This document shows positions 6,159 to 23,825 of a DNA stretch of 23,825 bases, piece after piece (position 1 is the stretch's first letter; each line of letters opens with the position of its first letter). The notes beneath the pieces are model-generated. The model was not told where the DNA came from. It worked only from the letters and a program-made list of their open reading frames with translations, and did no database searches. Made by a program: the position numbers and the translations under genes. The stretch spans positions 1 through 23,825 of IMG/VR virus record IMGVR_UViG_3300002835_001091. One strand, written 5' to 3'. The DNA is from a virus.

Positions 6159-8894
6159 ATGAGTAAGATATTAAAAGATATTATTCGTGAAGAATATCTT
6201 AAATGTGCAGCGAATCCTGTTTATTTTATGAAGAAATATGCAAAGATTCAACACCCAACAAGGGGGACGATACTTTTTGATTTATGGAACTTTCAGGAAG
6301 ATGTACTTAAAGATTTTCAGGAACATAGATATAATATATGTTTAAAGTCACGTCAGTTGGGTATATCCACACTTATTGCCGGTTACTCATTATGGATGAT
6401 GTTATTTGGTAATGATAAAAATATTCTCGTTATTGCAACAAAACAAGAAACTGCAAAAAATCTCGTTACAAAGGTTCGTGTTATGTATGATAACCTACCT
6501 TCATGGTTAAAGACTGCCGTTGTTGAAGATAATAAACTTTCTCTACGTTTAAAGAATGGTTCACAGATAAAGGCAGTATCTGCCGCCGCAGATGCCGCTC
6601 GTTCTGAGGCACTTTCTCTTCTTATCATAGATGAGGCGGCGTTCATAGATAACATCGAAGAAATATGGGCATCTGCCCAATCCACAATCAATACGGGTGG
6701 TAGTGCAATTATAAATTCAACTCCGAATGGTGTTGGTAATTTTTATCATAAACAATGGGTTGGTGCAAAGACAGGTGAAAATTTATTCAATCCGATATTT
6801 CTTCATTGGACCGTTCACCCTGAGAGAGACCAGTCGTGGCGAGATCAACAAGATATTATCCTTGGCCCTTCACTCGCTGCACAGGAGTGTTTTTCTGGGA
6901 ATGTACGAGTTATGACTGATATGGGATGGAAACCAATATCTGATATAGAAGTTGGTGATTTCGTACTTTCACATAAAGGAAAATTCCAAAGAGTGGTACG
7001 TAAATATGTTGACAGTAAGAATAATTTATACCGAGTAAAAAGCTCTAAAAATTATAAAGATGATTGTTACATAACATCAAACCATCCAATAGCTATAAAA
7101 AATAATCTTGATATTTCATTTATTCCTGTTAATGAATATAATAAAAATATGCATGGGGTACTATCTCCGAATATAGATGGGTTTGATAAAGAAATAACAT
7201 TAGATGTATATGATTTAGTAAGTCCAAAATATTTTAAAAAAGTTCTTTTAGATAATAGTTCACAATTTTATATTAATGACAGAAAACATAAAGTAATTCA
7301 TAACAGATATATTGCCGTTGGATATGATTTTGGATATTTTATTGGACTGTACTTGGCTGAAGGATCCGGATGTAGATTGAGAAAAACATTTTCATTCAAT
7401 GCTCTAACCGAACAGAATACATGGCCAGGTGACGTTCAACGTATATTATCAAATTTATTTGGTATCCAGAACACTCAGATTCGTATAGTAAATCAGTCAT
7501 GTGGTTATTTAAATATATCTTCTGAAATTGTGGCATCGATTATAGATAAATTCGTTGACGGAAATCGTGCATGGAAAAAAAGACTATCGCCGTTTGCCTA
7601 TAAAGTTGGGAATAAAAATTTTTGGAAGGGTGTTTTGGATGGAATATTTACAGGTGATGGGTGTAATACAAAGACTGCAAATCATGCAATATCAATCACT
7701 TCACCGGAATTAAGTTACGATATATTATTTGCAAGTTATATGTCTGGTATATTTGGTGTGTCATCTACAATAAATGAGTCATCTGAAACTGTGTTAAAAA
7801 AATCCAATTTTAGATTGGGAAACAGTACATTACATCATAAATCTACTGTTAGATTTTTAAACACAAAAAATACAGACACCTCACGTATAACACACAATTT
7901 AAATTTAAAGAATGATAATGGTGTACAATGGAATTTTGAAGAAATTGATAATTCTATAATAAAAACCGTTTATAACTTGGAAGTGGAGAATGATAATACT
8001 TATGTTACTGAATTTGGATTAGTGCATAATTGTGACGGCGATTTTCTATCATCCGGTAATTCCGTAGTTGATGGTAATATAATCGATTGGTATCAAAAAA
8101 CTTATGTAACAGAACCAAAAGAACGACGTGGTGCAGAAGACTCACTTTGGATATGGGATTACCCGGATCCAAACAAAACTTACATGATTTGTGCAGATGT
8201 TGCTCGTGGTGATGGAAAAGATTATTCTGCATTTCACATTATAGATATAGAAAACGTAGAGCAGGTCGCCGAATACAAGGGCAAATTAGATACGAAATCT
8301 TTCGGAAATCTTTTAGTTTCGATTGGAACTGAATATAACGATGCATTACTTGTAGTTGAAAACGCAAACATCGGATGGGCGGTGTTACAACAGATAATCG
8401 ATCGTGGTTATACAAATTTATACTACACATATAAAGAAGATGGTTATACCGATCCTTCGGTTCATATTCCAAAGGGGTATGACTTAAAAGATAAATCACA
8501 GATGGTTCCCGGATTCTCAAATACGGCAAAAACACGTCCACTTATAGTTTCAAAATACGAAATGTATTTCAGAGAACGAGTGCCTATTATTAAATCCACA
8601 CGTTTATCCGAAGAAATGTTTGTCTTTATCTGGAAAGGTGGTAGGGCAGAGGCACAAGTTGGTTACAATGATGACTTAGTAATGTCTTTTGCAATAGGTC
8701 TTTGGGTTCGTGATAGTGCCTTAAAACTTCGTCAAGAAGGTTTGACAAGAACTAAGATGAGTTTGGATTATATTACAAAATCTTCTGTTATACTTAATTC
8801 TGCAAATATGATAGATTTGAAATCTAAGACGGGATGGTCTATGGGCGTCGGGGATAACAAGAAAGACGAAGATTTAACTTGGCTTGTAAAATGA
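6159..8894 (+). CDS. Terminase large subunit (gp17-like) carrying an in-frame intein
   Basis: 911 residues, 530 after removal of the intein (244-624). The protein is the ATP-driven DNA-packaging motor and headful nuclease. The ATPase half has a P-loop-like KSRQLGIST at 63-71, where the usual GKT Lys is replaced, Walker B LLIIDE with Asp158 and Glu159, and the coupling motif STPNG at 187-191. The C-terminal RNase H-like nuclease has Asp680 (ICADVARGDG), Glu734 (LVVENAN) and Asp838-Asp839 (GYNDD). The exteins join as AAQE then CDGDF, the normal linker between the two domains. The start ATG follows the previous stop by 3 nt. No small terminase subunit is seen in the window. Confidence 0.95.
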   Translation: MSKILKDIIREEYLKCAANPVYFMKKYAKIQHPTRGTILFDLWNFQEDVLKDFQEHRYNICLKSRQLGISTLIAGYSLWMMLFGNDKNILVIATKQETAKNLVTKVRVMYDNLPSWLKTAVVEDNKLSLRLKNGSQIKAVSAAADAARSEALSLLIIDEAAFIDNIEEIWASAQSTINTGGSAIINSTPNGVGNFYHKQWVGAKTGENLFNPIFLHWTVHPERDQSWRDQQDIILGPSLAAQECFSGNVRVMTDMGWKPISDIEVGDFVLSHKGKFQRVVRKYVDSKNNLYRVKSSKNYKDDCYITSNHPIAIKNNLDISFIPVNEYNKNMHGVLSPNIDGFDKEITLDVYDLVSPKYFKKVLLDNSSQFYINDRKHKVIHNRYIAVGYDFGYFIGLYLAEGSGCRLRKTFSFNALTEQNTWPGDVQRILSNLFGIQNTQIRIVNQSCGYLNISSEIVASIIDKFVDGNRAWKKRLSPFAYKVGNKNFWKGVLDGIFTGDGCNTKTANHAISITSPELSYDILFASYMSGIFGVSSTINESSETVLKKSNFRLGNSTLHHKSTVRFLNTKNTDTSRITHNLNLKNDNGVQWNFEEIDNSIIKTVYNLEVENDNTYVTEFGLVHNCDGDFLSSGNSVVDGNIIDWYQKTYVTEPKERRGAEDSLWIWDYPDPNKTYMICADVARGDGKDYSAFHIIDIENVEQVAEYKGKLDTKSFGNLLVSIGTEYNDALLVVENANIGWAVLQQIIDRGYTNLYYTYKEDGYTDPSVHIPKGYDLKDKSQMVPGFSNTAKTRPLIVSKYEMYFRERVPIIKSTRLSEEMFVFIWKGGRAEAQVGYNDDLVMSFAIGLWVRDSALKLRQEGLTRTKMSLDYITKSSVILNSANMIDLKSKTGWSMGVGDNKKDEDLTWLVK
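6888..8030 (+). mobile_element. Intein with LAGLIDADG homing endonuclease inside terminase
   Basis: 381 residues, in frame, from Cys244 to Asn624 of the precursor. Splicing blocks are complete: Cys1 with CFSGNVRVMT at the N end, GDFVLSH near 23-29, TSNHP at 63-67 (block B His66), the C-terminal VYNLEVENDNTYVTEFGLVHN region ending in His380-Asn381, and Cys as the +1 residue. The central endonuclease has two LAGLIDADG helices, FIGLYLAEGS (intein 151-160, acidic Glu158) and LDGIFTGDG (250-258, acidic Asp257). Both catalytic acids are kept, so it may still be a mobile, active element. Flanking Glu and Cys reconstitute the normal terminase linker. Confidence 0.93.
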
Positions 8895-8912
8895 TTTAAA
8901 AAATAGAATTAC

Positions 8913-8921
8913 ATATTTATA
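8913..8921 (+). promoter_or_regulatory. Candidate late-promoter element ATATTTATA
   Basis: Lies in the 63-nt gap between terminase and portal, ending 37 nt before the portal ATG, exactly the spacing seen at 1599-1607. It sits inside the near-palindrome ACATATTTATATGT (8911-8924). Confidence 0.5.
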
Positions 8922-8957
8922 TGTATGGTTTAACCAATAATATAGAAAGAATTTTAA

Positions 8958-10844
8958 ATGGCTGAAAAAAAATCAATATTCGATAGGCTTAAAACACTAT
9001 TTAGCACAAATGTGGTCGTGCGTAATGTTGGTGGTAAAAGACTTAAAGTAGTTGACACCGCTCGTTATCAGGCAGATGGAAACCCACACACATCTAAAGT
9101 TATTGATCGTTATGGTAGATTACACGGTTCTCGTGGAACTCCCATATCTGTTTATAATCAGTATAATTCATTTTCTGCAACAAAGATAGATTTGTACACC
9201 GACTATGAGGCAATGGACACGGATGCTATTATTTGTTCTGCATTAGACATTTATTCCGATGAATCGACTCTTAAAAATGCACACGGGGATGTGTTAACCA
9301 TTAGAACTGACAATGATAATATCAGAAAAATTTTACATAATTTATTTTATGATATTTTAAATATCGAATATAATCTCTGGCCGTGGATTAGAAACTTATG
9401 TAAGTATGGAGACCATTATCTTTATCTCGATGTTAAAGATGAAGTTGGTATTACAAACGTTGTTCCACTTTCTCCGTATGAAATGCAACGTGATGAGGGA
9501 ACTGATCCGGAACACATCTATATGACAAAATTTATTTATGAGGGTCCACTCGGAAAGGGTGAATTTCAAAATTACGAAATTGCACACTTTCGTTTAATCG
9601 GTGATACAAACTTTTTACCGTATGGTAAATCTATGTTAGAAGGTGCCCGTAAACTCTATAAACAACTTGTTCTTATGGAAGATGCTATGTTGATTCATCG
9701 TATTATGAGAGCGCCTGAAAAAAGAATATTTAAAGTTGACATTGGCAATATCCCTCCGGCTGAAGTTGATCAATATATGCAAAACATTATTGATAAGATG
9801 AAAAAAGTTCCCGTGGTAAACGAACAAACGGGACAATATAATCTTCGGTATAATATGCAAAATATTCTTGAGGATTTTTACCTTCCTGTTCGTGGTGGTC
9901 AAGCCGGAACCACAATCGAAACCCTACCCGGATTACAATATCAGGCAATCGAGGACGTAGAGTATCTTAAAGGAAAGATATTCGCTGCTCTTAAAATACC
10001 AAAGGCATATCTTGGATATGATGAATCTCTTGAGGGTAAGGCAACCCTTGCCACACTCGATATTAGATTTGCAAGAACAATCGAAAGAATCCAAAGAATA
10101 GTTGTATCTGAATTAACAAAGATTGCCATCGTACACTTGTATGCTCAGGGGTATGAAAATGCAGACCTTGTAAATTTTGAGCTATCTCTTACCGGCCCGT
10201 CTATTATTTATGAACAAGAAAAAATTGCTCTTATGAAGGAAAAGGTTGATCTTGCCGGTTCACTCATAGAGAAAAAATTGCTTTCAATGAAAACAATTTA
10301 TGCCGATATATTCAATCTTTCAGAGGATGAGGCGGAGATGGAAAAGAATAATATACTCGAAGATATTAAACACGCATTCCGTCAAAAGCAAATTGAAAGT
10401 GAAGGAAATGACCCAATGATAACGAAGGAATCTTTTGGTACACCACACGATTTGGCAACTATGAATATTTATGGTGGTAAAAAAGTTAGACCAATAAATG
10501 ATGTTGAAGTTCCCGAAGGTGGGTGGCCAGGGGCAGGAAGACCGCCGGAACATGGTTCTACTTATGGTACGGATGCATCTAATTTTGGACGTGATTCCAC
10601 GGGACGAAAGGATCTTGGAAAATCTTTAAGTGTTGATTTGTCACCGAAACATAATTACAGAGGTTCTGCTATTCGTAGTGAAAACAGAGATAATAATAAA
10701 CAAATTTCCGATATTGTAAAAAATATGAGTGGATTTAACATAAAAACTAAATCCATAATATCTGAAAGTTTAAAACCATCTTCTGAAAACGTAAAAAATG
10801 AATCAAATTTCTTAAATGAAAACAATTTATTAGAAGAAATGTAA
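8958..10844 (+). CDS. Portal vertex protein (gp20-like)
   Basis: 628 residues, forming the dodecameric ring through which DNA enters and leaves the head and on which the prohead is built. Signature stretches of T4-type portals are present: RIMRAPEKRIF at 248-258, DIGN at 261-264, LEDFYLPVRGG at 304-314, ETLPG at 321-325, EDVEYLKGKIFAALKIP at 332-348. The last 120 residues are Gly/Ser/Asn-rich and low in complexity (EGGWPGAGRPPEHG onward), longer than the T4 tail, which accounts for the larger size. It has its own candidate promoter at 8913 and directly follows the terminase, without sheath and tube genes between. Confidence 0.95.
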   Translation: MAEKKSIFDRLKTLFSTNVVVRNVGGKRLKVVDTARYQADGNPHTSKVIDRYGRLHGSRGTPISVYNQYNSFSATKIDLYTDYEAMDTDAIICSALDIYSDESTLKNAHGDVLTIRTDNDNIRKILHNLFYDILNIEYNLWPWIRNLCKYGDHYLYLDVKDEVGITNVVPLSPYEMQRDEGTDPEHIYMTKFIYEGPLGKGEFQNYEIAHFRLIGDTNFLPYGKSMLEGARKLYKQLVLMEDAMLIHRIMRAPEKRIFKVDIGNIPPAEVDQYMQNIIDKMKKVPVVNEQTGQYNLRYNMQNILEDFYLPVRGGQAGTTIETLPGLQYQAIEDVEYLKGKIFAALKIPKAYLGYDESLEGKATLATLDIRFARTIERIQRIVVSELTKIAIVHLYAQGYENADLVNFELSLTGPSIIYEQEKIALMKEKVDLAGSLIEKKLLSMKTIYADIFNLSEDEAEMEKNNILEDIKHAFRQKQIESEGNDPMITKESFGTPHDLATMNIYGGKKVRPINDVEVPEGGWPGAGRPPEHGSTYGTDASNFGRDSTGRKDLGKSLSVDLSPKHNYRGSAIRSENRDNNKQISDIVKNMSGFNIKTKSIISESLKPSSENVKNESNFLNENNLLEEM

Positions 10845-10852
10845 GTTTCACT

Positions 10853-10861
10853 ATATTTATT
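10853..10861 (+). promoter_or_regulatory. Candidate late-promoter element ATATTTATT
   Basis: In the 45-nt gap after the portal gene, 29 nt before the next ATG. It matches the recurrent element at 8 of 9 positions. It would start the head-assembly operon that runs to 15319. Confidence 0.42.
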
Positions 10862-10889
10862 TATTGAATAATACTCCTGGGTAACATAA

Positions 10890-11723
10890 ATGAAAAAAAT
10901 TAAACATTCAAAATATAAGAATACAGGTATGTTGTTTGAACTCTTAACAAGACAGATAACATCCGATATTATTTCCTCAAAGGAATCGGTGGCCACAGAG
11001 ATTTTGAAAAAATTCTTCAATAAGAATAGTGAACTTTTAAAAGAGTATTCACTTTATAAAACTTTGTGTGAACAGAGATTTCCCTCTGAATATAAATCCA
11101 ACATCCTAATCGATGCGGTTTTACGTGCAAGAGGCGCTAACATCGACCGTGGTAAATTAAAGGAAGAAAAATACCAATTAATAAAGGCAATAAACGAAAA
11201 TTTTAATATAGATAATTTTTTTCAAACAAAAGTACAGAACTATAAATTACTGGCATCCATCTATAAGATTTTTGAATATAGTGAATTTGATAATCCTACA
11301 ACATTTACACAATCGAAAGTTACTATAATTGAAAATTTAATGTCTGATAAAAAATCTCGTATTGTTGAGAATCACGTCAGTATTTCGGAAGAACCAAAAG
11401 AAGTTAGATTACTTTCATATAAGATACTTGTTGAGAAGTTTAATACAAAATACGAAGAACTTTCGGCAGAACAGAAAACAATTCTACGTGAATACATTGG
11501 AAACATCAGTAACACTAACAATTTAAAAGACTTTATGAAGACTGAGGCAACTCGTATTCAAGAAGTTCTTACTAAGAAAATAAAATTTGTTAAAGATAAG
11601 CCTTTAAAAATAAAATTGAAAGAAGTCATAGAACTTTTAAATCAATATAAAACACTTAAAACAATAGACGAGAATCATGTATCTGCTTTGTTAAGATATT
11701 ATTCTTTAATAAATGATTTATAA
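10890..11723 (+). CDS. Conserved helical protein of T4-like phages, function unknown
   Basis: 277 residues, basic and almost wholly alpha-helical. The N-terminus (KKIKHSKYKNTGMLFELL, residues 2-19) is the most distinctive part, and I recall it as a conserved start in hypothetical proteins beside the portal gene of marine T4-like phages. No signal peptide, membrane segment or catalytic motif is visible. Position between portal and protease, where T4 has the small prohead core genes 67 and 68, suggests a head-assembly role, but it is far larger than those and sequence similarity to them is not apparent. Confidence 0.75.
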   Translation: MKKIKHSKYKNTGMLFELLTRQITSDIISSKESVATEILKKFFNKNSELLKEYSLYKTLCEQRFPSEYKSNILIDAVLRARGANIDRGKLKEEKYQLIKAINENFNIDNFFQTKVQNYKLLASIYKIFEYSEFDNPTTFTQSKVTIIENLMSDKKSRIVENHVSISEEPKEVRLLSYKILVEKFNTKYEELSAEQKTILREYIGNISNTNNLKDFMKTEATRIQEVLTKKIKFVKDKPLKIKLKEVIELLNQYKTLKTIDENHVSALLRYYSLINDL

Positions 11724-11735
11724 TGGAGATATAAA

Positions 11736-12053
11736 ATGCCAGAACCAGGACAACCGTATAACTTTCCAGCATCACAGGCAGACCAATTTGAAAGAAGTGG
11801 TCATCCTGGAAAATTTTTGTACTCAATAACGTGTACAACTGGAACAACAACATTTACTTCTTCATATTATGGTGTTGGTGGATTGATTGTTCCAAGTGGA
11901 ACAACGGGAACCGCCTCTTTATCTGCCGGTGGCACAATCCCATTGGCTACATTGGCAACTACATCACCGAATATTTGGGAACTATCTTTACGTAGTGTTA
12001 AAGTCGATAGTGGAACTGTATATGCTTTAATTCGTAATCAACTTATTAGGTAA
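11736..12053 (+). CDS. Small beta-rich protein, probable virion component
   Basis: 105 residues, rich in Gly, Thr and Ser, with alternating beta-like segments (GGLIVPSGTTGTASLSAGG at about 48-66 and ELSLRSVKVDSGTVYALIR at about 84-102). This resembles small head-decoration or tail-decoration proteins in composition, though I cannot name a family. GGAG at 11725-11728 is 7 nt before ATG, one of the best ribosome sites in the window, which suggests high expression. It follows the previous gene by 12 nt in the head operon. Confidence 0.7.
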   Translation: MPEPGQPYNFPASQADQFERSGHPGKFLYSITCTTGTTTFTSSYYGVGGLIVPSGTTGTASLSAGGTIPLATLATTSPNIWELSLRSVKVDSGTVYALIRNQLIR

Positions 12054-12057
12054 TGTT

Positions 12058-12555
12058 ATGAACACAGAGTTATTCATAAAAAAAATACAACAAATGGAAT
12101 CATATCAGAAATTTAAAAATGAATTATCTGAAATGAACGTAACAGGCGCGGTTGCCGGGTATGAAACACCAAACGCGTTTTCCCCATCCGAGAAAGACTT
12201 TGAACGTCATAATAAAGAAACTGCAGAAGTGTATGGTTACACTATGGTTCCAAAGGGAAAGAAACGAAATTTTGAATCGTTATATGTACAGGCAATGAAT
12301 GCGTTACATGAAGGTTCTTATAAATCATATAAGACGGATGAAACAAGAACGGTTAATAGTAAAATAAATCAATCTATAAAAGAAATAAACCGTTCGATAT
12401 ATGAGATAGAACGAGTAGTGAATCACGCTTCACGATTGAAATTAGAAATGGGAGTTGACCAAAGAACTCTATGGTCTTCGTCACACAAAAGACTCCACAA
12501 GATTGGTGAAAGATTAAATAGAATCGGTAAAAAAATTAATGAATTAGGTGCTTAA
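12058..12555 (+). CDS. Helical head-operon protein, function unknown
   Basis: 165 residues. A motif near the N-terminus, VTGAVAGYETPNAF (29-42), is a type of sequence I recall from structural or prohead-associated proteins of marine phages. The remaining part is charged and helical (repeated K-I-N/E-I patterns at 100-165), a likely coiled coil. It lies immediately before the prohead protease, whose ATG at 12557 is just past this stop. A core or scaffold-associated role is inferred from position only. Confidence 0.7.
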   Translation: MNTELFIKKIQQMESYQKFKNELSEMNVTGAVAGYETPNAFSPSEKDFERHNKETAEVYGYTMVPKGKKRNFESLYVQAMNALHEGSYKSYKTDETRTVNSKINQSIKEINRSIYEIERVVNHASRLKLEMGVDQRTLWSSSHKRLHKIGERLNRIGKKINELGA

Positions 12556-12556
12556 A

Positions 12557-13216
12557 ATGAGACAATTACTTGTAGATACAATGCTTTTTAGCATGACTCC
12601 AAAACAAATAAATGAGTCAAGAAAAGAAGACGGTAAAATAATCGTTTCAGGTGTATTGCAACGTGCCGAGGCAAAGAATCAAAATGGACGTATCTATCCA
12701 AAAAAGATTCTTATGCGAGAAGTAAAGAAATACCAAGAAAATCAAATTAAAGAAAATCGTGCTCTTGGTGAGTTGGATCACCCCGATTCATCTGTTATCA
12801 ATCTTCGTAACGTTTCACATAATGTTCTTGATTGTGATTGGGATGGGAATGATGTAGTTGGTCGTGTTGAAATATTACCAACACCTTCGGGAAATATTCT
12901 GAAACAACTTCTTCACGCCGGAATACGATTGGGAATTTCCTCACGAGGATTGGGTTCCGTAAAAGAAGTAAACGAAAATACCGTTGAAGTTCAAGATGAT
13001 TTTGAATTGATTGGGTGGGATTTTGTATCGAATCCGTCAACACAAGGGGCGTTCATGTACAAGGATGGATTGGGTGAAAACATCATAAGAGAAGGTGTTG
13101 ATATGAAAACCATAACTAAAATAGATCCTAAAATTAAACGTATAAATGAAAACATAACAAATATTATTTGTGAAATCGGTAACATCTGTGAATGTATTTT
13201 TGAAGGGAGAAAATAA
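12557..13216 (+). CDS. Prohead maturation protease (gp21-like)
   Basis: 219 residues from ATG 12557. A GTG at 12548 in frame would add three residues and overlap the previous gene; ATG directly after the upstream stop is preferred. It is a herpes-assemblin-fold serine protease that cleaves scaffold and capsid proteins during head maturation. The family motifs are clear: GRIYPKKIL at 44-52, ALGELDHP at 69-76 with catalytic His75, GISSRGLGSV at 126-135 with the catalytic Ser at 128 or 129, and GWDFVSNPS at 153-161, whose Asp155 may complete the triad. The C-terminal 40 residues beyond the domain end in a Cys-containing tail and may be an autocleaved propeptide. Confidence 0.92.
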   Translation: MRQLLVDTMLFSMTPKQINESRKEDGKIIVSGVLQRAEAKNQNGRIYPKKILMREVKKYQENQIKENRALGELDHPDSSVINLRNVSHNVLDCDWDGNDVVGRVEILPTPSGNILKQLLHAGIRLGISSRGLGSVKEVNENTVEVQDDFELIGWDFVSNPSTQGAFMYKDGLGENIIREGVDMKTITKIDPKIKRINENITNIICEIGNICECIFEGRK

Positions 13217-13839
13217 TGCCATCAAGTAGTAAACAACAACAAAAATTTATGGGACTTGTTCTTGCATACAAGCAAGGAAAAGTACCGGCATCAAAAGTTA
13301 GTAAGAATGTAAAACAAGTTGCAAATTCAATGTCCGTAAAAGAACTCGAAAAATATGCCGGTACATCACATAAAGGGCTTCCTAAAAAGGCAGAATCCTT
13401 TGATGTTTCAAAACTTAATAGGAATGCAATTACAGAACTAAAGTCAATAATATCAAACACGGTTGACCGTGTTTTAAAAGAAGGGGTTAAAGAAAAACAA
13501 GAAGATCCTTTATTAACACCCGAACAAAAGAGAGAATTTATTGAACAAGTTTCTAGATTTAATGAATATGGTCAGGCGATATACCGTCAGAATAATTTAA
13601 AAGAAGCATACAAAAATATTAAGAGTGTTGTTGAGTTTGCATCAAAACACATAACAGAGGAGTCTGGCGACTGGTTTGACCAAGTAACTTTAGGAAGGCA
13701 TAGTAAAAAATTAAAAGAATCTATGAAGATATTTGAAAAGACTGTTGCCGAATCTATTAAACTACAACAGAGACTTGAGTCTGTATATGAAGAAATCGGA
13801 GAAACACTCAACAGATATTATAAGATAAACGGTAAATAG
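13216..13839 (+). CDS. Helical protein with a short phage N-terminal motif, function unknown
   Basis: 207 residues. The start codon shares one base with the protease stop (TAATG), and GGGAG upstream at 13205-13209 supports it. The first 60 residues (SSKQQQKFMGLVLAYKQGK, then KNVKQVANSM and SVKELEKYAGTSHKGLP) match a type of small phage domain seen as a stand-alone protein or N-terminal module; the exact family is uncertain. The rest is a long charged helix region (150-207) without catalytic motifs. Co-translation with the protease suggests a role in prohead assembly or as a substrate of cleavage; this is inference. Confidence 0.7.
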   Translation: MPSSSKQQQKFMGLVLAYKQGKVPASKVSKNVKQVANSMSVKELEKYAGTSHKGLPKKAESFDVSKLNRNAITELKSIISNTVDRVLKEGVKEKQEDPLLTPEQKREFIEQVSRFNEYGQAIYRQNNLKEAYKNIKSVVEFASKHITEESGDWFDQVTLGRHSKKLKESMKIFEKTVAESIKLQQRLESVYEEIGETLNRYYKINGK

Positions 13840-13864
13840 TTTTAAACATTAAGAAAGGTTACAG

Positions 13865-14086
13865 ATGTCAGATTACAGTACAAGACCACAAACGGCACAC
13901 GTTAAGGTTAAAGGAAACGGAATGAATATTGATTTTATGCTTAAGGTATTTAAGAAAAAAGTCAAGGAATGTGGAATACTCGAAGAGTATAAAATTAAAA
14001 GTGAGTATCGAAAACCGTCGGAAATAAAAAAAGATAAACGAAATGCAGCAAGACAGAGGCAACGAAAACTTGATATGGAACAATAA
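13865..14086 (+). CDS. rpsU-like: Ribosomal protein bS21 homologue encoded by the phage
   Basis: 73 residues. From residue 13 the protein follows bacterial bS21: a V-x-V start, the D-x-x-L-x-x-FK helix (DFMLKVFKKK, 23-32), the turn ECGILEE (35-41), the EYRKPSE step (47-53), and a very basic helix (KKDKRNAARQRQRKL). bS21 sits on the 30S platform near the 3' end of 16S rRNA and helps mRNA initiation. Phage-borne bS21 genes are known, including in pelagiphages and in large lake phages, where expression was reported late. Here the gene is inside the head operon, preceded by AAAGG, and 2 nt before an ADP-ribosyltransferase. It probably swaps into host ribosomes; the effect is not readable from sequence. 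Confidence 0.82.
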   Translation: MSDYSTRPQTAHVKVKGNGMNIDFMLKVFKKKVKECGILEEYKIKSEYRKPSEIKKDKRNAARQRQRKLDMEQ

Positions 14087-14088
14087 TC

Positions 14089-15162
14089 GTGATTAAACTC
14101 AAAGATATATTACTTGAAAAAGACAATAAACTTGATAGTGAAAATCCAGATAAAATTCTTGTAAAAAACAAGAAGAGTGGTGAGACGTATTATATCAACA
14201 AAGACAATTTCAACACATCTATCCACGAAAAACCAAAAGGTCAAGAAGACACCAAAACTTCAGACGATAAAAAGTCGAGTGATAAAGATTCAAAAGAAAA
14301 AACTAAAACGGGTGGTATAGATTTGATGGCCGGTATTAGCGACGATGCCGGTGACAAAGATACCAATAAAAAACCAACCGATGATACCGATTCGTTAAAA
14401 TCTAAATTTTTAATGAGTTCGTATGATATGGATAATCTGATTAAAAAATTTAAGGGAATACGTCCTGACTTAGAAGATAAACTTTTAAGATACAATTACA
14501 ATGCCTTATTTGATGAATATAACAATTTACAGATACAAGGCATGGATGACGAGAAATTAAAATCAGTTATAAGAAAATTTCAATCTGTTTCTTTGGCAAA
14601 ATTTAGTTTGTTATCACAAAAAGAAAATGATGTAAATGTTATTGAATCCACAATCATATATCGTAATAATTCAAATGAAATAAATGATATATTGCAGAAA
14701 AAAGAAAAACTGATGACAAGACAACAAGTAGAATCTGAATTAGAAAAAACAGGTCAACCAGAAGAATTAAAATATGAATTGAAAAAAACTCTCGCGATTT
14801 ATGTAATGGATGATCATTTTAAAACATCTGGTGCAAGATTAGAACACCCCGTTACTGTTTATCGTGCGGTTGATAAATCTATAATAGATAGGTTCGATGA
14901 GGCAAATACATGGACAGACAATGGATTTGTCTCTACATCATTGAATCCTATTATTTCCGAAATACCTGAGAATAAAGAAAGAAATCCACTTTTAAAAATA
15001 CACTTAAAAAAAGGGGATCCAGTTTTAATCTTATCTAAAGACGAGGATAAATATTTTTATGAAACTGAAGTTACCTTACCCCGTAAGTGTAGATTTAAAG
15101 TTGGAAAATATGATAAAGTAAAGAACTCATACGATGTTTCTGTGGAGTACCAAAATGCCTGA
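14089..15162 (+). CDS. ADP-ribosyltransferase of the R-S-E class, possible head-packaged effector
   Basis: 357 residues, GTG start 2 nt after the bS21 stop, giving MIKLKDILLEK. Residues 50-105 are a charged, Lys/Asp/Ser-rich linker, and 106-240 are helical. The C-terminal 110 residues carry the classic triad of arginine-type toxins: YRAVD with Arg259, GFVSTSLNP with Ser282-Thr283-Ser284, and YETEV with Glu325-x-Glu327. The enzyme would transfer ADP-ribose from NAD to a host protein. T4 carries related activities (Alt, ModA, ModB), and Alt is packaged in the head and injected. Placement among head genes, before the scaffold, suggests the same for this protein, and the N-terminal segment could be a packaging tag; both are inferences. 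The target is unknown. Confidence 0.8.
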   Translation: MIKLKDILLEKDNKLDSENPDKILVKNKKSGETYYINKDNFNTSIHEKPKGQEDTKTSDDKKSSDKDSKEKTKTGGIDLMAGISDDAGDKDTNKKPTDDTDSLKSKFLMSSYDMDNLIKKFKGIRPDLEDKLLRYNYNALFDEYNNLQIQGMDDEKLKSVIRKFQSVSLAKFSLLSQKENDVNVIESTIIYRNNSNEINDILQKKEKLMTRQQVESELEKTGQPEELKYELKKTLAIYVMDDHFKTSGARLEHPVTVYRAVDKSIIDRFDEANTWTDNGFVSTSLNPIISEIPENKERNPLLKIHLKKGDPVLILSKDEDKYFYETEVTLPRKCRFKVGKYDKVKNSYDVSVEYQNA

Positions 15163-15319
15163 TAAAAAAGATAACACTAAAAAAGAAGAGTTTTTTATTC
15201 GTACTGATAGATTTATTTACACGAAAGATGACTTAAAACATATTATCGGTCTCGATGAAGAAAAAAAATCTACTATTTTACTAAAAAAAATGTTACCAGG
15301 CAAGAAAAAAATGAAATAA
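15155..15319 (+). CDS. Small basic protein, function unknown
   Basis: 54 residues from ATG 15155, which overlaps the ADP-ribosyltransferase stop by 8 nt; an earlier in-frame start at 15134 would lie wholly inside that gene and is less likely. Composition is Lys-rich (start PDKKDNTKKEEFF, end KKMLPGKKKMK) around a core FIYTKDDLKHIIGLDEE. No family recognised. Translational coupling and the tight position at the end of the operon argue that it is real. It could be a small prohead core protein like T4 gp67/gp68 or an accessory of the enzyme upstream; neither is supported by motif. Confidence 0.55.
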   Translation: MPDKKDNTKKEEFFIRTDRFIYTKDDLKHIIGLDEEKKSTILLKKMLPGKKKMK

Positions 15320-15327
15320 ATTTAAAA

Positions 15328-15342
15328 ATATTTATATTTATG
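15328..15342 (+). promoter_or_regulatory. Two overlapping candidate promoter elements ATATTTATA / ATATTTATG
   Basis: The motif occurs twice, at 15328-15336 and 15334-15342, in the 109-nt gap before the scaffold gene. It is the only place with a tandem copy, in front of the genes expected to be most strongly expressed. Confidence 0.5.
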
Positions 15343-15350
15343 TTTATAAT

Positions 15351-15373
15351 ACTCTATCTTTATAGAGTTTTCT
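15351..15373 (+). terminator. Hairpin followed by T-rich stretch in the scaffold leader
   Basis: ACTCTAT (15351-15357) pairs with ATAGAGT (15362-15368) around a 4-nt loop, then TTTTCTTATTTT follows. The 7-bp stem is weak and AT-rich. It could end the upstream operon, but it lies after the tandem promoter-like motif, so it may instead be a 5' leader hairpin protecting the scaffold/capsid mRNA. Confidence 0.4.
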
Positions 15374-15428
15374 TATTTTATGTTTGATTAGAGTTATCAA
15401 TAACTTTAGAAATTAGTTGGAGATGTTT

Positions 15429-16487
15429 ATGACAGATTTATTGAAAGAAGCAATAGCAGACGCAAAGGCAGTACGTGAAGTCGCTTTGGCAAATGCAAAA
15501 TTGGCTTTGGAAGAGGCATTTACTCCGAGACTTCAATCCATGCTCGCTTCAAAACTTTCCGAAGAAGCTGAGGAAGAAGATGGCGAAACCGTAACTGCTG
15601 AAGGAGAAGGTGAGGAAGAAGAAACAACTGACGAATCTTATTTCTTTGAAGGTGACGATGAAGAAGAAGCGCCTATGGGAGAAGGAGAAGGTGAGGAAGA
15701 AGAAACAACTGACGAATCTTATTTCTTTGAAGGTGACGATGAAGAGCCTGCAATGGAAGAAGGAGAGGATGAGGAGCCTGCAATGGAAGAAGGAGAGGAT
15801 GAAGAAGAATCTATGGACGAGGATTTGATGGAAATAATCCGTCAACTTGAAGAAGATATTGATTCATCTGAAATTGGAACGGGTGACAATAAAAAGCCAT
15901 CCAAGACTGCATCTGACTCTACAACCGATATGAAGAAGGAAAAACTTGTTCAGATGGTTGAGGGGGAAGAGGAAGAGACGCCGGTAGAAGAAGGTGAAGA
16001 GGGTGAAGACGAAGTTGATATTCAAGAAATTCTACGTGCTCTTCGTGAAGAAGAGGAAGGTGGAGAAGAGTCTATGGAAGAGGGTGAAGATGAAGAGGCA
16101 CCAGCCGAAGAACCTGCCCCCCAAACAGAAGCAAAACTTCGTGAGGCATACGCTGTTATTCAATTCCTTCGTGGTAAGTTGAATGAAATCAATCTTTTAA
16201 ATTCTAAACTTTTGTTTTCAAACAAACTTTTCCGTTCACATTCTTTAACCGAATCACAAAAGATTACAGTTATTGAAAACTTTGATCGAGCAACAAGTCT
16301 TCGTGAAGTTAAATTGGTTTACGCAACACTTGCAGAATCTTTGAGAGGTACAAAGAATAAAACAATGAAACCTATTAGAGAATCATACGCAAGTAAACCA
16401 GTTGCAAGCACACGTCCATCTAAAGCAATCTTAACAGAAAGCAATCAGATGGCGGATAGACTAAGAAAATTGGCAGGAATAAAATAA
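15429..16487 (+). CDS. Prohead scaffold / core protein (gp22-like)
   Basis: 352 residues from ATG 15429. GGAG at 15419-15422 sits 6 nt upstream, which favours this start over ATG 15423. The N-terminal helix (LLKEAIADAKAVREVALANAK, ending EEAFTPRLQSMLASKL) is the part I recognise from gp22 of marine T4-like phages. Residues about 40-230 are an extreme Glu/Asp/Gly region with internal duplications. The C-terminal 120 residues are helical and basic (KLREAYAVIQFLRGKLNEIN onward, ending RLRKLAGIK), as expected for a scaffold that contacts the capsid shell and is then digested by the gp21 protease. It lies 21 nt before the capsid gene, so the pair is likely co-transcribed. Confidence 0.87.
   Translation: MTDLLKEAIADAKAVREVALANAKLALEEAFTPRLQSMLASKLSEEAEEEDGETVTAEGEGEEEETTDESYFFEGDDEEEAPMGEGEGEEEETTDESYFFEGDDEEPAMEEGEDEEPAMEEGEDEEESMDEDLMEIIRQLEEDIDSSEIGTGDNKKPSKTASDSTTDMKKEKLVQMVEGEEEETPVEEGEEGEDEVDIQEILRALREEEEGGEESMEEGEDEEAPAEEPAPQTEAKLREAYAVIQFLRGKLNEINLLNSKLLFSNKLFRSHSLTESQKITVIENFDRATSLREVKLVYATLAESLRGTKNKTMKPIRESYASKPVASTRPSKAILTESNQMADRLRKLAGIK
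15600..15745 (+). repeat. Direct repeat of about 65 bp in the scaffold gene (81-bp offset)
   Basis: 15600-15664 and 15681-15745 read the same and both encode the Glu-rich stretch ending in TTDESYFFEGDDE. The identity at DNA level implies a recent duplication in the acidic core of the scaffold protein. Confidence 0.85.
15741..15800 (+). repeat. 30-bp tandem repeat in the scaffold gene
   Basis: Two adjacent copies differing at about one base encode E(E/D)EPAMEEGEDE-type units, directly after the 65-bp repeat. The reading frame is preserved, so only the length of the acidic segment changes. Confidence 0.8.
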
Positions 16488-16508
16488 TAAACTATTGGAG
16501 ATAATTAC

Positions 16509-18140
16509 ATGAGTATTAAAACATTATTAGGTTCATCTGATGGTCAACACAGAAAATTGATCGAAGAGAATCGTGGTACTGTACGCAAGTGGCAAAAAAC
16601 TGGCCTTCTTGACGGTATCAACACAGAGTATGAAAAGAACTCTATTGCAGTTCTTTTGGAAAATCAAGCAAAGCAACTTATCGATGAATCAAACCGTACA
16701 GGTACGGCTGCTGGTTCCGAAGAGTGGGCTGGTGTGGCACTTCCGCTTGTACGTCGTATTTTTTCTGAAATTGCGGCAAAAGATTTCGTTTCGGTTCAAC
16801 CTATGAACCTCCCGTCAGGTCTTGTATTCTACTTGGACTTCAAGTATGGTACAGCACAACCTGGCTTTACAACAAATTCCGGTAAGGATTCACAGGCAGA
16901 TTCTGTATTCGGTGTTACCGGTGCTGCTGCTAAGAATGCCGATCCTTCAGGCGGTCTTTATGGCGCTGGTCGTTTTGGTTATTCCATTAACGAATCACTT
17001 GTTAGCGCCGGTTCGGGTAGCTCACTTACAACAACAAACTTTACAACTGGTTCTGTAACAACATCATCTGCGGTAACTTATCAATTCGATAAGGAGTTCC
17101 AAGATGCTTATCTTGCAGATCTAAACGGTGGTAAATTCTTTACCGTTACCGTTAGTTCAAGTTTGCTTGCTAACTACGATGCTGAAGCAGTTCGCTCCTT
17201 CTACATTAGTGGTTCAACAATTAAACAATACTTCCCTCAGTACACAACTACAAACGCGGCAAATACACAAATCACATTTGTTGTTTCTGCATCTGCTGTT
17301 CCTACTGATATTGGTATCGCTTATTCAAAACAACCTACAGCGATTTCACGTGGTGACTTTGAAGATCAAGGTTCAAACCTCGATATTCCTGAACTTAATC
17401 TCGAATTACGTTCCGAGTCTATCGTTGCTAAAACACGTAAGTTGAAGGCAGTTTGGACACCTGAATTTGCTCAAGACTTGAACGCATATCACTCAATCGA
17501 CGCGGAAGCAGAATTGACTTCTATGTTGTCAGAGTACATTTCACAGGAAATTGACCTTGAAATCTTGGATATGCTTATCAAGAACGCACAGACAACCGAA
17601 AGATGGTCTGCTCGTATTGGTCGTACCTATGATGCTTCTACCGGTTTGTTTGGTGATTATTCATCTTCACAGGCGCAGGCATCGGCATTCAATCAACAAA
17701 CATGGTTCCAAACACTTGGCACCAAGATTCAAAAGGTATCTAACGTTATTCATCAAAAGACACTTCGTGGTGGTGCAAACTTCTTGGTTTGTTCTCCTCA
17801 AGTTGCTACATTGCTTGAATCAATGCCTGGATACGCGGTTGACGGTGAAGGTATGAAGTTTGCGATGGGTGTTCAAAAGGTTGGACAACTTAATGGTCGT
17901 ATCACAGTTTACAAGAACCCATATATGCTCGAAAACCAAATTCTTGTTGGTTTCCGTGGTAGCCAGTTCCTTGAAACAGGTGCGGTGTATGCTCCTTACA
18001 TTCCTCTCGTGATGACTCCGTTGGTATATGACCCAACGAACTTCACACCACGTAAGGGTGTAATGACTCGTTATGCAAAGAAGATGGTTCGTCCTGAATT
18101 TTTCGGTTTGATTCAAATCGATTCATTGGGTGACATCTAA
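16509..18140 (+). CDS. Major capsid protein (gp23-like)
   Basis: 543 residues, close to the usual T4 gp23 length. Recognisable stretches include the N-terminal region (LIEENRGTVRKW), EEWAGVALPLVRRIFSEIAAK at about 72-92, PMNLPSGLVFYLDFKYG at about 98-114, DFEDQGSNLDIPELNLELR, RKLKAVWTPEFAQDLNAYH, and the C-terminal part NPYMLENQILVGFRG and YDPTNFTPRKGVMTRYAKKM. It forms the HK97-fold hexamers of the head and its N-terminus is normally removed by the prohead protease. GGAG at 16497-16500 is 8 nt from ATG. Its codon use is visibly richer in C-ending codons (TTC, AAC, CGT, GGT) than neighbouring genes, as expected for a very highly expressed gene. Confidence 0.96.
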   Translation: MSIKTLLGSSDGQHRKLIEENRGTVRKWQKTGLLDGINTEYEKNSIAVLLENQAKQLIDESNRTGTAAGSEEWAGVALPLVRRIFSEIAAKDFVSVQPMNLPSGLVFYLDFKYGTAQPGFTTNSGKDSQADSVFGVTGAAAKNADPSGGLYGAGRFGYSINESLVSAGSGSSLTTTNFTTGSVTTSSAVTYQFDKEFQDAYLADLNGGKFFTVTVSSSLLANYDAEAVRSFYISGSTIKQYFPQYTTTNAANTQITFVVSASAVPTDIGIAYSKQPTAISRGDFEDQGSNLDIPELNLELRSESIVAKTRKLKAVWTPEFAQDLNAYHSIDAEAELTSMLSEYISQEIDLEILDMLIKNAQTTERWSARIGRTYDASTGLFGDYSSSQAQASAFNQQTWFQTLGTKIQKVSNVIHQKTLRGGANFLVCSPQVATLLESMPGYAVDGEGMKFAMGVQKVGQLNGRITVYKNPYMLENQILVGFRGSQFLETGAVYAPYIPLVMTPLVYDPTNFTPRKGVMTRYAKKMVRPEFFGLIQIDSLGDI

Positions 18141-18162
18141 TTTGTAAATAATTGGACACGAA

Positions 18163-18202
18163 ATAATGGGTGGTGAGATTTCTCATCACCCATTTTTTTT
18201 TT
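18163..18202 (+). terminator. Strong intrinsic terminator after the capsid gene
   Basis: ATGGGTGGTGAG (18166-18177) pairs with CTCATCACCCAT (18182-18193), 12 bp with one G-U pair and loop ATTT, followed by a run of ten T. It closes the scaffold-capsid transcript 25 nt after the stop codon. Confidence 0.93.
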
Positions 18203-18268: not shown

Positions 18269-19651
18269 ATGAAACGAGTTGTAGATAAAACACCCATTAT
18301 TTGTAAAATATGTTATCGTCATTTAAATGTTGGGGGATTCAGAACTCATTTGCAAATGAAACATCCAGACTATGATACAGATAGGTATGTCTCTGAGTTT
18401 GGTGAATTTAGACCTAAAAAATTAAAACATATAGAAAATACTAATAAAAGTGATATTGTATGTGAAGAATGTAATAAAAAAATGGCAACACATAAAGAAT
18501 TGATGCATCATATACGTGTTCACAACATGAATTACGAACAATATCACATAAAATATAAATTTGGTGGTATTCATCCGGTATGTAAATGTGGATGTGGAGT
18601 TAAGGTTAAAATAATAAAAGGTGGTATTCTTGATGATACGGGTAAACGAGTATTCGCCAGAGACTTTATAACGGGACACAATACCTGTATGTCGATTGGT
18701 GTTCAAACAAGAACTTTTGAGTCAAGAATGAAAATGCGAGAAAGTGCTATAAAACGTATGGAACGAGATGGCAATAGATTTTCCCCAAAAACATCATCGG
18801 CTCAACGAGAAATATATGAATTTATTCAAAGCATATCTGACGGCTTTATGGAACAAGATACTTCATTACTTTATGGCAGAGAGATAGATATAGTAAATCA
18901 TGAAAAAAAAATTGGAATAGAGTACAATGGACTTTATTTTCATTCAGACATTTATAGAGATAGAAAATATCATCTATCTAAATTAAAAGAAATGGAGAAA
19001 CTTGGGTATCGTCTTGTTTATATCTGGGAAGATTGGTGGGTTAGAAAAAAGGAAATTGTAAAATCCATGTTATCGTCGGTTTTGAGTGTAGGCGGTACTA
19101 AGATATATGCTAGAAAATGTGATGTTCGAGAAATAACAGACGAATCTGCGAGAATATTTCTTGGTAAAAATCACATACAAGGGCCATCGGTTTCAAAAAT
19201 ACGAATTGGTCTTTTTTATAACGAAGAACTAGTTTCTGTTATGACCTTTGGGAAATTAAGAGCAACATTGGGAAGTAAGTCAAAAGAGGGTCATTGGGAA
19301 ATGATGAGATTTTGTTCCAGTTTAAATACCACGGTGGTTGGTGGTGCATCTAAATTATTTTCCTTTTTTATAAAGAAATATAATCCAATTTGTGTGATTT
19401 CATTTGCCAATAGAGATTGGTCGGTCGGTAACGTGTATGATAAAATTGGATTCAAACTTCTTGGTGCAACTGAACCTGGATATTTTTATGCAAAAGGTAA
19501 ACGAAGGTTCAATAGATCTATGTTTACAAAACATAAGTTGATAGAATCTGGAGCGGATAAGGCAAAAACAGAATCAATTATAATGAAAGAACGTGGTTAC
19601 ATGAAAATTTGGGACACTGGTAATATTAAATTTGAATGGAAACCCAAATAA
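18269..19651 (+). CDS. Free-standing homing endonuclease: zinc fingers, Vsr-like nuclease, GNAT-like C-terminus
   Basis: 460 residues. Two C2H2-type fingers open the protein (C12-C15-H27-H32 and C65-C68-H81-H85), followed by a small Cys cluster CKCGCG at 105-110. The nuclease core at about 203-257 reads REIDIVN (Asp207), IGIEYNGLYFHSD (Glu218, His225) and GYRLVYIWEDWW, the pattern of Vsr-like/EDxHD phage endonucleases. Residues 278-415 (KIYARKC, LVSVMTFGKLR, VVGGASKLFSFF, DKIGFKLLG) look like a GNAT-type fold often attached to this family. Such genes spread by cutting phage genomes that lack them. It stands between a terminator and the next promoter-like element, with AGGAG only 2 nt before ATG. 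Confidence 0.8.
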   Translation: MKRVVDKTPIICKICYRHLNVGGFRTHLQMKHPDYDTDRYVSEFGEFRPKKLKHIENTNKSDIVCEECNKKMATHKELMHHIRVHNMNYEQYHIKYKFGGIHPVCKCGCGVKVKIIKGGILDDTGKRVFARDFITGHNTCMSIGVQTRTFESRMKMRESAIKRMERDGNRFSPKTSSAQREIYEFIQSISDGFMEQDTSLLYGREIDIVNHEKKIGIEYNGLYFHSDIYRDRKYHLSKLKEMEKLGYRLVYIWEDWWVRKKEIVKSMLSSVLSVGGTKIYARKCDVREITDESARIFLGKNHIQGPSVSKIRIGLFYNEELVSVMTFGKLRATLGSKSKEGHWEMMRFCSSLNTTVVGGASKLFSFFIKKYNPICVISFANRDWSVGNVYDKIGFKLLGATEPGYFYAKGKRRFNRSMFTKHKLIESGADKAKTESIIMKERGYMKIWDTGNIKFEWKPK

Positions 19652-22380: not shown

Positions 22381-23825
22381 ATGAGTAATTGTAGTTCAAA
22401 TAGTGGTATAATCGTAAAAGTGGATTCACAAACTAATGTAGTTCGTGTAATTTCCGAAGGACCACGTGGTGTTTCCGGAACAGCTGGAACATCAGGACAA
22501 ACTTATGGTACATCGGGAACATCCGGATTTTCAGGAAGTTCTGGTACTACCGGTACATCCGGAACATCGGGTAGTTCGGGTACGTCCGGTAGTTCCGGTA
22601 CATCGGGAACACGTGGTTCATCAGGAACATCGGGATCATCTGGAACATCAGGGCAAACTGGGTCTTCAGGGACATCAGGTCAAACTGGTTCATCGGGAAC
22701 ATCAGGACAAAACGGTTCATCTGGAACATCGGGTTCATCGGGAACTTCAGGATCATCGGGTTCATCTGGAACATCAGGACAAACTGGTTCTTCAGGAACA
22801 TCAGGACAAACTGGTTCATCTGGAACATCAGGACAAACTGGTTCATCGGGAACATCAGGACAAAACGGTTCATCTGGAACATCGGGTTCATCGGGAACTT
22901 CAGGATCATCGGGTTCATCTGGAACATCAGGACAAACTGGTTCTTCAGGAACATCAGGACAAACTGGTTCATCGGGAACATCAGGACAAACTGGTTCTTC
23001 GGGAACATCAGGACAAAACGGTTCATCTGGAACATCGGGGTCATCGGGTTCATCGGGAACATCGGGAACATCAGGACAAACTGGTTCTTCGGGAACATCA
23101 GGACAAACTGGTTCATCTGGAACATCAGGACAAAATGGTTCATCGGGAACATCAGGACAAAATGGTTCATCGGGAACATCAGGACAAAACGGTTCATCTG
23201 GAACATCCGGTTCTTCGGGAACATCGGGTTCATCTGGAACATCAGGACAAACTGGGTCATCGGGAACATCAGGACAAACTGGGTCATCGGGAACATCCGG
23301 GTCATCGGGAACATCAGGACAAACTGGTTCTTCAGGGACATCAGGTCAAACCGGTTCTTCGGGGACATCAGGTTCTTCGGGAACATCAGGACAAACTGGA
23401 TCATCTGGAACATCAGGACAAACTGGGTCTTCGGGTACATCAGGTTCATCGGGAACATCAGGACAAACTGGTTCTTCGGGAACATCAGGACAAACTGGTT
23501 CATCTGGAACATCAGGTTCTTCGGGAACGTCTGGAAATTCCGGTGATAGGTATGCAACTACGTCCACAACCTCGTTAACAATAGGTACTGGGTCAAAAAC
23601 ATTAACCGTGGGCACTGGATTACAACTTAGTATAGGTCAATCCGTTATTATTGCATTTGATGATAATAATAAAATGGAAGGCAATATAACGTCGTATAAT
23701 TCCATTACAGGTCAATTAATTGTTAATGTTACAACAATTACTGGATCCGGAACATATTCAAGTTGGAGCGTCTCTTTATCTGGAACACCCGGACCATCCG
23801 GTACGTCAGGAACATCGGGTTCATC
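22381..23825 (+). CDS. Collagen-like tail fibre protein, 5' part (3' end outside window)
   Basis: ATG 22381 opens a frame with no stop to the last base (481 complete codons). The first 26 residues (start MSNCSSNSGIIVKVD) look like an attachment peptide. Residues 27-387 are Gly-X-Y triplets, mainly the nine-residue unit GTSGQTGSS, with one break (GQTY) near the start. Residues 388-467 form a globular beta domain (RYATTSTTSLTIGTGSKTL, then SIGQSVIIAFDDNNKMEG), and a second Gly-X-Y segment starts at 468. It is likely a trimeric fibre, and its partner is probably the BppU-like protein just upstream. Codons differ from the fibre at 1-1599, so the repeats grew independently. Confidence 0.87.
   Translation, partial: MSNCSSNSGIIVKVDSQTNVVRVISEGPRGVSGTAGTSGQTYGTSGTSGFSGSSGTTGTSGTSGSSGTSGSSGTSGTRGSSGTSGSSGTSGQTGSSGTSGQTGSSGTSGQNGSSGTSGSSGTSGSSGSSGTSGQTGSSGTSGQTGSSGTSGQTGSSGTSGQNGSSGTSGSSGTSGSSGSSGTSGQTGSSGTSGQTGSSGTSGQTGSSGTSGQNGSSGTSGSSGSSGTSGTSGQTGSSGTSGQTGSSGTSGQNGSSGTSGQNGSSGTSGQNGSSGTSGSSGTSGSSGTSGQTGSSGTSGQTGSSGTSGSSGTSGQTGSSGTSGQTGSSGTSGSSGTSGQTGSSGTSGQTGSSGTSGSSGTSGQTGSSGTSGQTGSSGTSGSSGTSGNSGDRYATTSTTSLTIGTGSKTLTVGTGLQLSIGQSVIIAFDDNNKMEGNITSYNSITGQLIVNVTTITGSGTYSSWSVSLSGTPGPSGTSGTSGS
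22459..23541 (+). repeat. 27-bp repeats coding Gly-X-Y units (GTSGQTGSS)
   Basis: The main unit is GGAACATCAGGACAAACTGG plus GTTCATC-type ends, 27 bp. It alternates with shorter GTSGSS units in longer blocks: the segment around 22690-22830 is nearly repeated at about 22850-22990. The lack of stop codons in other frames makes long false frames on both strands here. Confidence 0.9.
23782..23825 (+). repeat. Second Gly-X-Y segment of the fibre, cut by window end
   Basis: After the globular insert, triplets resume with GTP, GPS, GTS, GTS and GS- and run off the end of the window. Its full length is unknown. Confidence 0.8.

Follow-up and report, generated by a model that had tools for sequence, protein, structure and literature searches.

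What does a phage gain by carrying a gene for the small ribosomal protein bS21 among the genes that build its head? bS21 is the ribosomal protein most commonly found in phages, and its occurrence near head genes and its expression late in infection have both been described already (Mizuno 2019, Chen 2022). The question is raised here by a 73-residue open reading frame in the viral record IMGVR_UViG_3300002835_001091 of IMG/VR, which we analysed over its whole length of 23,825 nucleotides (the window); the window is the complete record, and the record is itself a fragment. A first-pass annotation made from the sequence alone had proposed that late synthesis would let the phage replace host bS21 and bias initiation toward its own structural mRNAs. 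We therefore consider the identity and position of the gene, its conservation, a residue that bears on Shine-Dalgarno (SD) use in a studied bS21, and the likely host, before weighing what the protein may do.

A bS21 gene within the head operon

The open reading frame, which begins with ATG, is a true bS21 homologue, confirming the annotation. A check against the Pfam family had been proposed with it and was positive: PF01165 (Ribosomal_S21) matched with an E-value of 5.1e-11 and 42.6 bits, against a gathering cut-off of 27 bits, residues 17–67 corresponding to profile positions 5–55 of 55. PHROG 21469 (“ribosomal protein S21”) also matched (E 7.3e-6), and the family profile found PDB bS21 chains with a best E-value of 2e-9 (3e-6 for F. 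johnsoniae 7jil). The core helix, turn and basic tail read from the sequence are borne out by the alignment of related phages (the clade described below) and of PDB bS21 chains, in which an FKR-type helix, a G-[IV]-L turn, a KP[ST] motif and a basic tail are present, and G37, L39, K50-P51-S52 and the basic tail are conserved across the clade. AlphaFold2 placed the expected helices at residues 22–36, 38–46 and 51–72 (mean pLDDT 76, pTM 0.37), and a Foldseek search with this very small model gave zero matches. It is the sole bS21 in the window.

Homologues of gp20, gp21 and gp23 occur in T4-like order around the gene (Table 1), with three small genes separating the portal from the prohead protease. 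The proposed location between the protease region and the scaffold holds as a position in the head operon, while the direct neighbours are a gene with a DUF3008 domain and an ADP-ribosyltransferase (ART) gene. The scaffold as the gene right after bS21 was rejected, that gene being the ART; the scaffold-like gene lies further on and has no family match in Pfam or PHROG.

Table 1. Features of the head-gene region (window positions; nt unless stated)
Feature	Position	Strand	Basis or remark
Portal Gp20	8958–10844	+	PF07230, 6.9e-72
Prohead protease, T4 gp21-like, Peptidase_S77	12548–13216	+	PF03420, 3.4e-32
DUF3008 domain protein, 207 aa, upstream neighbour of bS21	13216–13839	+	PF11450, 3.4e-11; clade synteny
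bS21 leader, SD-like (aagaaaggt)	13846–13860	+	modest, about -6.4 kcal/mol
bS21 (rpsU-like), 73 aa	13865–14086	+	PF01165 match, 7jil_z alignment, clade conservation
ADP-ribosyltransferase	14089–15162	+	invariant residues, Vis profile match, AF2 model/Foldseek
Small ORF	15134–15319		between ADP-ribosyltransferase and scaffold-like gene
Acidic probable scaffold/prohead core protein	15417–16487	+	pre-MCP position, composition, clade conservation
Major capsid protein Gp23 (MCP)	16509–18140	+	PF07068, 1.8e-78
Intrinsic terminator-like hairpin and T run after MCP	18165–18194	+	13-pair stem, T tail

The spacing of the genes is tight, with 25 nt from the DUF3008 gene to the bS21 start and 2 nt from the bS21 stop to the ART start, so that co-transcription of bS21 with the head genes is likely. 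A scan of the window found no forward terminator-like site from 8000 to 18165, where the strong hairpin after the MCP gene probably marks the end of the head operon. From the shared strand, the 25-nt spacing and this terminator-free stretch it is reasonable to expect late synthesis of bS21, since a protein transcribed with the head genes would probably be made late.

Directly downstream, the ART gene encodes 357 amino acids in which R259, S282-T283 and E327 are invariant among homologues; the R, STS and ExE motifs are all present, and the fold is that of an ART. Against the PDB, the family profile matched the arginine ADP-ribosyltransferase Vis (E 2.6e-4), and the AF2 model matched ART structures in Foldseek (E about 1e-8); Pfam and PHROG contained no match to the family. 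The protein starts with MIKLKDILLE. An [IL]xE motif occurs at residues 8–10 in 16 of 16 ART homologues, against 3.9% of clade ORFs, a conserved MI[KR]LKxIL start occurs in 15 of the 16, and this start is kept in members that lack the linker following it. Packaged internal proteins of T4 carry an N-terminal (I/L)xE processing tag. The ART N-terminus looks like such a capsid-targeting and cleavage tag, and on this analogy the enzyme is probably packaged in the head like T4 Alt. The MIKLKDIL.E start is also shared by several unrelated clade ORFs, which suggests a set of packaged proteins.

Other features of the window are recorded here in their own right. The TerL gene (6159–8894) encodes 911 aa where relatives have about 530, and has an intein-like insert with Hint domain matches and an end at VHN|C that is absent from most relatives read. 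Between the MCP gene and the next core gene, positions 18269–19651 encode a protein of 460 aa that weakly matches a nuclease family (MTES_1575) and Mom-like proteins; it was not found in the relatives read and is perhaps a mobile endonuclease. A 783-aa protein (1644–3995) has a weakly cytidylyltransferase-like N-terminus and, further on, a KLDGQN nucleotidyltransferase/ligase-like motif seen by eye, possibly an NAD or RNA repair fusion. Long collagen-like GTSGSSG repeats lie at both ends of the fragment (1–1599 and 22381–23823), in proteins that are probably tail-fibre-like.

Conservation of bS21 in the clade

The search with bS21 gave 48 viral contigs or loci with a homologue in the same gene order, one of them a longer contig of the window's own sample with an identical gene, and at all loci read the order was the same and bS21 was on the strand of the head genes. 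A portal-based search, which avoids selecting on bS21, gave 80 loci, 25 of them spanning protease to MCP. All 25 of these contigs carry bS21, while ART is present in 20 and absent in 5. The bS21 gene is under strong purifying selection, with a median pairwise dN/dS of 0.074. Given its presence in every spanning contig and this constraint, bS21 belongs to the core genes of a T4-like phage clade from freshwater and estuarine waters.

Residue 54 and Shine-Dalgarno use

Tyr54 of F. johnsoniae bS21 stacks on A1534 and helps to sequester the anti-SD; a Y54A change or a C-terminal deletion of bS21 increases SD-dependent translation, and the rpsU genes of Bacteroidia have an extended SD of their own, of -14 to -21 kcal/mol (PMC9976891). 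In the window, Gln64 aligns with this Tyr54 (alignment to 7jil_z). Among clade members long enough to judge, position 54 is always Lys, Arg or Gln and never aromatic, Gln being the residue of the window and Lys or Arg that of the others. The SD before the clade bS21 genes has a mean of -5.9 kcal/mol and is -8.4 at its strongest; a very strong rpsU-type SD (below -13 kcal/mol) was looked for before these genes and was absent.

The clade is also rich in SDs. Assuming a canonical anti-SD, as all SD energies here do, pairing at or below -5 kcal/mol was found for 49% of 413 clade genes versus 13% of control windows. SD-bearing genes make up 43% in the window, 69% in the head region of the isolate Mel-JY01 and 6% in Flavobacterium phage immuto (MW353175.1). 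The latter carries no bS21 across its 160 kb, and SDs are rarer before its genes than in control windows from the same phage, in keeping with a host that likewise avoids SDs. At loci with Tyr or His54 bS21, including those of four phages of 634–735 kb, SDs are near background. Phages whose bS21 has the anti-SD-sequestering residue and phages whose bS21 lacks it thereby offer a clean comparison, as they differ sharply in SD use. By analogy with F. johnsoniae, the clade bS21 would be of a non-sequestering type, and the anti-SD should stay free for SD pairing. The correlation is imperfect, because LR756508.1, a distantly related, uncultured phage of 484 kb with an MCP 54% identical, combines Met54 with few SDs; its divergent bS21 lies about 2 kb before the MCP gene, on the same strand.

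Within Mel-JY01, SDs precede 59% of structural genes versus 38% of replication genes and 29% in small-gene regions (p 0.002). We rejected SDs as a mark of late genes only, since those of early genes are weaker yet well above background (p 7e-11). The proposed bias of initiation toward phage mRNAs is favoured indirectly, by an SD-rich clade with a non-aromatic bS21; for a bias toward structural mRNAs in particular, the SDs on early genes and the residue type shared with the nearest cellular bS21s weigh on the negative side.

The probable host

The closest isolate is Microcystis phage Mel-JY01 (PP395634), with an MCP 75% and a bS21 51% identical. Its intergenic regions (PP395634.1) hold 20 promoters of the form TTG-N18-21-TAnnTTTG against 0.77 expected, many of them 30–50 nt ahead of annotated starts, and no excess of sigma-70 promoters. 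We take this form to be the Bacteroidota promoter type. A smaller excess was found on the contig of one further locus (L045), and Flavobacterium phage immuto gave no enrichment in the same test, which is to that extent unvalidated on that phage. From the Bacteroidota-type promoters of Mel-JY01 and its lack of a sigma-70 excess we doubt Microcystis as the host of the clade, and the evidence suggests that the host recorded for Mel-JY01 is wrong. The intergenic regions of immuto are rich in TATTTATA-like motifs, which are common to the clade and are possibly a late promoter.

Among 395 Bacteroidota genomes, the best matches to the phage bS21 reach 54% identity and have Arg at position 54. In the genomes with these matches SDs precede as many as 73% of genes, with a few genomes near background, and the Flavobacterium control showed none. 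The best-matching class outside Bacteroidia (52%, E 2.5e-11) has a match in each of its 61 genomes, and Arg or Lys occupies position 54 in the members read. Within class Bacteroidia, the best E-value is 2e-7 at 36% identity, and the top matches (36–45%) are nearly all Tyr54. In addition, MetK of Mel-JY01 is nearest (43–51%) to genomes with Arg54 bS21. A published survey gives SD use as 32% in Ignavibacteria, 13% in Chlorobia and about 1% in Flavobacteriia (PMC10783764). Because the nearest bS21s and MetK come from Arg/Lys54 genomes, the host is likely an SD-using member of the Bacteroidota outside class Bacteroidia. The bS21 tree itself (72 rows, 73 columns) is poorly resolved and does not place the clade firmly. 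MetK neighbours in three genomes (G218, G150 and G234) were considered as a link between phage and host and set aside, as their surroundings look chromosomal rather than phage, and a search of genome-bin contigs with the clade bS21 motifs found no relative.

What the phage bS21 may do

We favour, at a probability of about 0.6, the reading that host bS21 is replaced late in infection by a matching, SD-permissive type, to the advantage of phage mRNAs. bS21 would be made late together with the head proteins. It would then take up the bS21 position on the 30S subunit of the host, whose own bS21 exchanges easily and would be replaced or replenished. The exchange would favour initiation on the abundant late phage mRNAs, and the anti-SD, left free, could pair with the SDs on about half of the clade's genes. 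The likeliest host would be a member of the Bacteroidota outside Bacteroidia with an Arg/Lys54 bS21 and SD-using genes of its own, to which the phage would supply a matching or improved copy of a host part, the ribosome not being rewired. Two published results bear on these steps: phage bS21 is transcribed alongside late genes (Chen 2022, PMC9723584), and pelagiphage bS21 enters E. coli ribosomes (Mizuno 2019, PMC6375957).

A more far-reaching effect is conceivable if the host were instead one of the SD-blind Bacteroidia. There, a phage bS21 free of Tyr54 would displace the Tyr54 protein and release the anti-SD and the 16S 3' tail, and ribosomes would become SD-dependent, preferring phage mRNAs, whose SDs host mRNAs lack. 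The gain in SD-dependent translation seen in F. johnsoniae when bS21 carries Y54A or is missing its C-terminus (PMC9976891) agrees with this, as do the Bacteroidota-type promoters of the clade, the SD avoidance of the Flavobacterium relative immuto, the near absence of SDs from all Tyr/His54 bS21 phages examined beside an SD-rich non-aromatic clade, and the higher share of SDs in the structural genes of Mel-JY01. We first considered this reading in a strong form and then lowered it, the nearest bS21 sources being Arg54, SD-using Bacteroidota outside Bacteroidia; together with their Lys54 counterparts they explain the same features with no such release. Moreover, the early genes carry SDs, yet SD-blind ribosomes would have to translate them first, and LR756508, though SD-poor, also lacks the aromatic residue. 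Because SDs are not a late-only mark, we hold this release of the anti-SD to be less likely than a match to the host, and regard it as unlikely.

The replacement could also be inhibitory, because pelagiphage bS21 nearly abolished translation by E. coli ribosomes, leaving about 5% activity in vitro (PMC6375957). A phage bS21 that poisons or slows host-type initiation in a dominant-negative manner would free resources for the phage with no selection among mRNAs, and the adjacent ART is of a kind with which T4 is known to modify the machinery of its host. However, the pelagiphage assay relied on a mismatched host, the gene here belongs to the operon whose translation is needed most, and strong purifying selection holds a normal bS21 core, so that we think a shut-off of this kind quite improbable. 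A role off the ribosome, in which a bS21-like basic protein serves head assembly, DNA packaging or RNA-binding regulation, would fit its fixed place among head genes and its small, basic, helical nature. It seems very improbable to us, however, in view of the full-length match to a ribosomal profile above the curated cut-off and the conserved FKR, G-I-L and KPS core, and bS21, unlike the adjoining ART, has no capsid-targeting tag. The contrast between bS21 phages with and without the sequestering residue means that the tools known from F. johnsoniae can be used to ask directly whether phage bS21 adjusts initiation to the leaders of phage mRNAs.

Comparison with known systems

A close parallel is with the lake Bacteroidetes phages of Chen et al. 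2022 (clades a–e; PMC9723584), large T4-like myoviruses with an inferred Bacteroidota host and with bS21 among the TerL, portal, protease and MCP genes, for which late bS21 expression was established from metatranscriptomics. In those phages, however, bS21 and the head genes lie on opposite strands and residue 54 is aromatic throughout, whereas the bS21 of the present clade shares the strand and the operon of the head genes and is non-aromatic, and the phage genes bear SDs. Mel-JY01 has bS21 at the same place, followed by an ART homologue, and is likewise SD-rich; unlike the phage of the window, it is cultured, and it is recorded on Microcystis while having Bacteroidota-type promoters. The Pelagibacter phages HTVC008M and Mosig (PMC6375957) are also T4-like myoviruses that encode bS21, but the sequence is distant (34% to Mosig, E 0.05); the HTVC008M protein, shown to enter E. 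coli ribosomes, was traced to the alphaproteobacterial host of that phage (Mizuno 2019, PMC6375957).

The ART shares the R-S-ExE catalytic motif with T4 Alt, ModA and ModB and the (I/L)xE N-terminal tag with packaged T4 internal proteins, but differs from them as a family outside Pfam and PHROG. The bS21 of Bacteroidia, for example that of F. johnsoniae (7JIL; McNutt 2023, PMC9976891), is of the same fold family, with a core about 40% identical, yet it has Tyr54 and a very strong SD of its own, neither of which the phage gene has; an exchange of bS21 was already the subject of speculation there (McNutt 2023, PMC9976891). Against the literature we searched, what is new is a clade in which an in-operon, same-strand, non-aromatic bS21 is coupled to SD-rich genomes, along with the constancy of bS21 in that clade, its ART partner, and the evidence against a Microcystis host for Mel-JY01.
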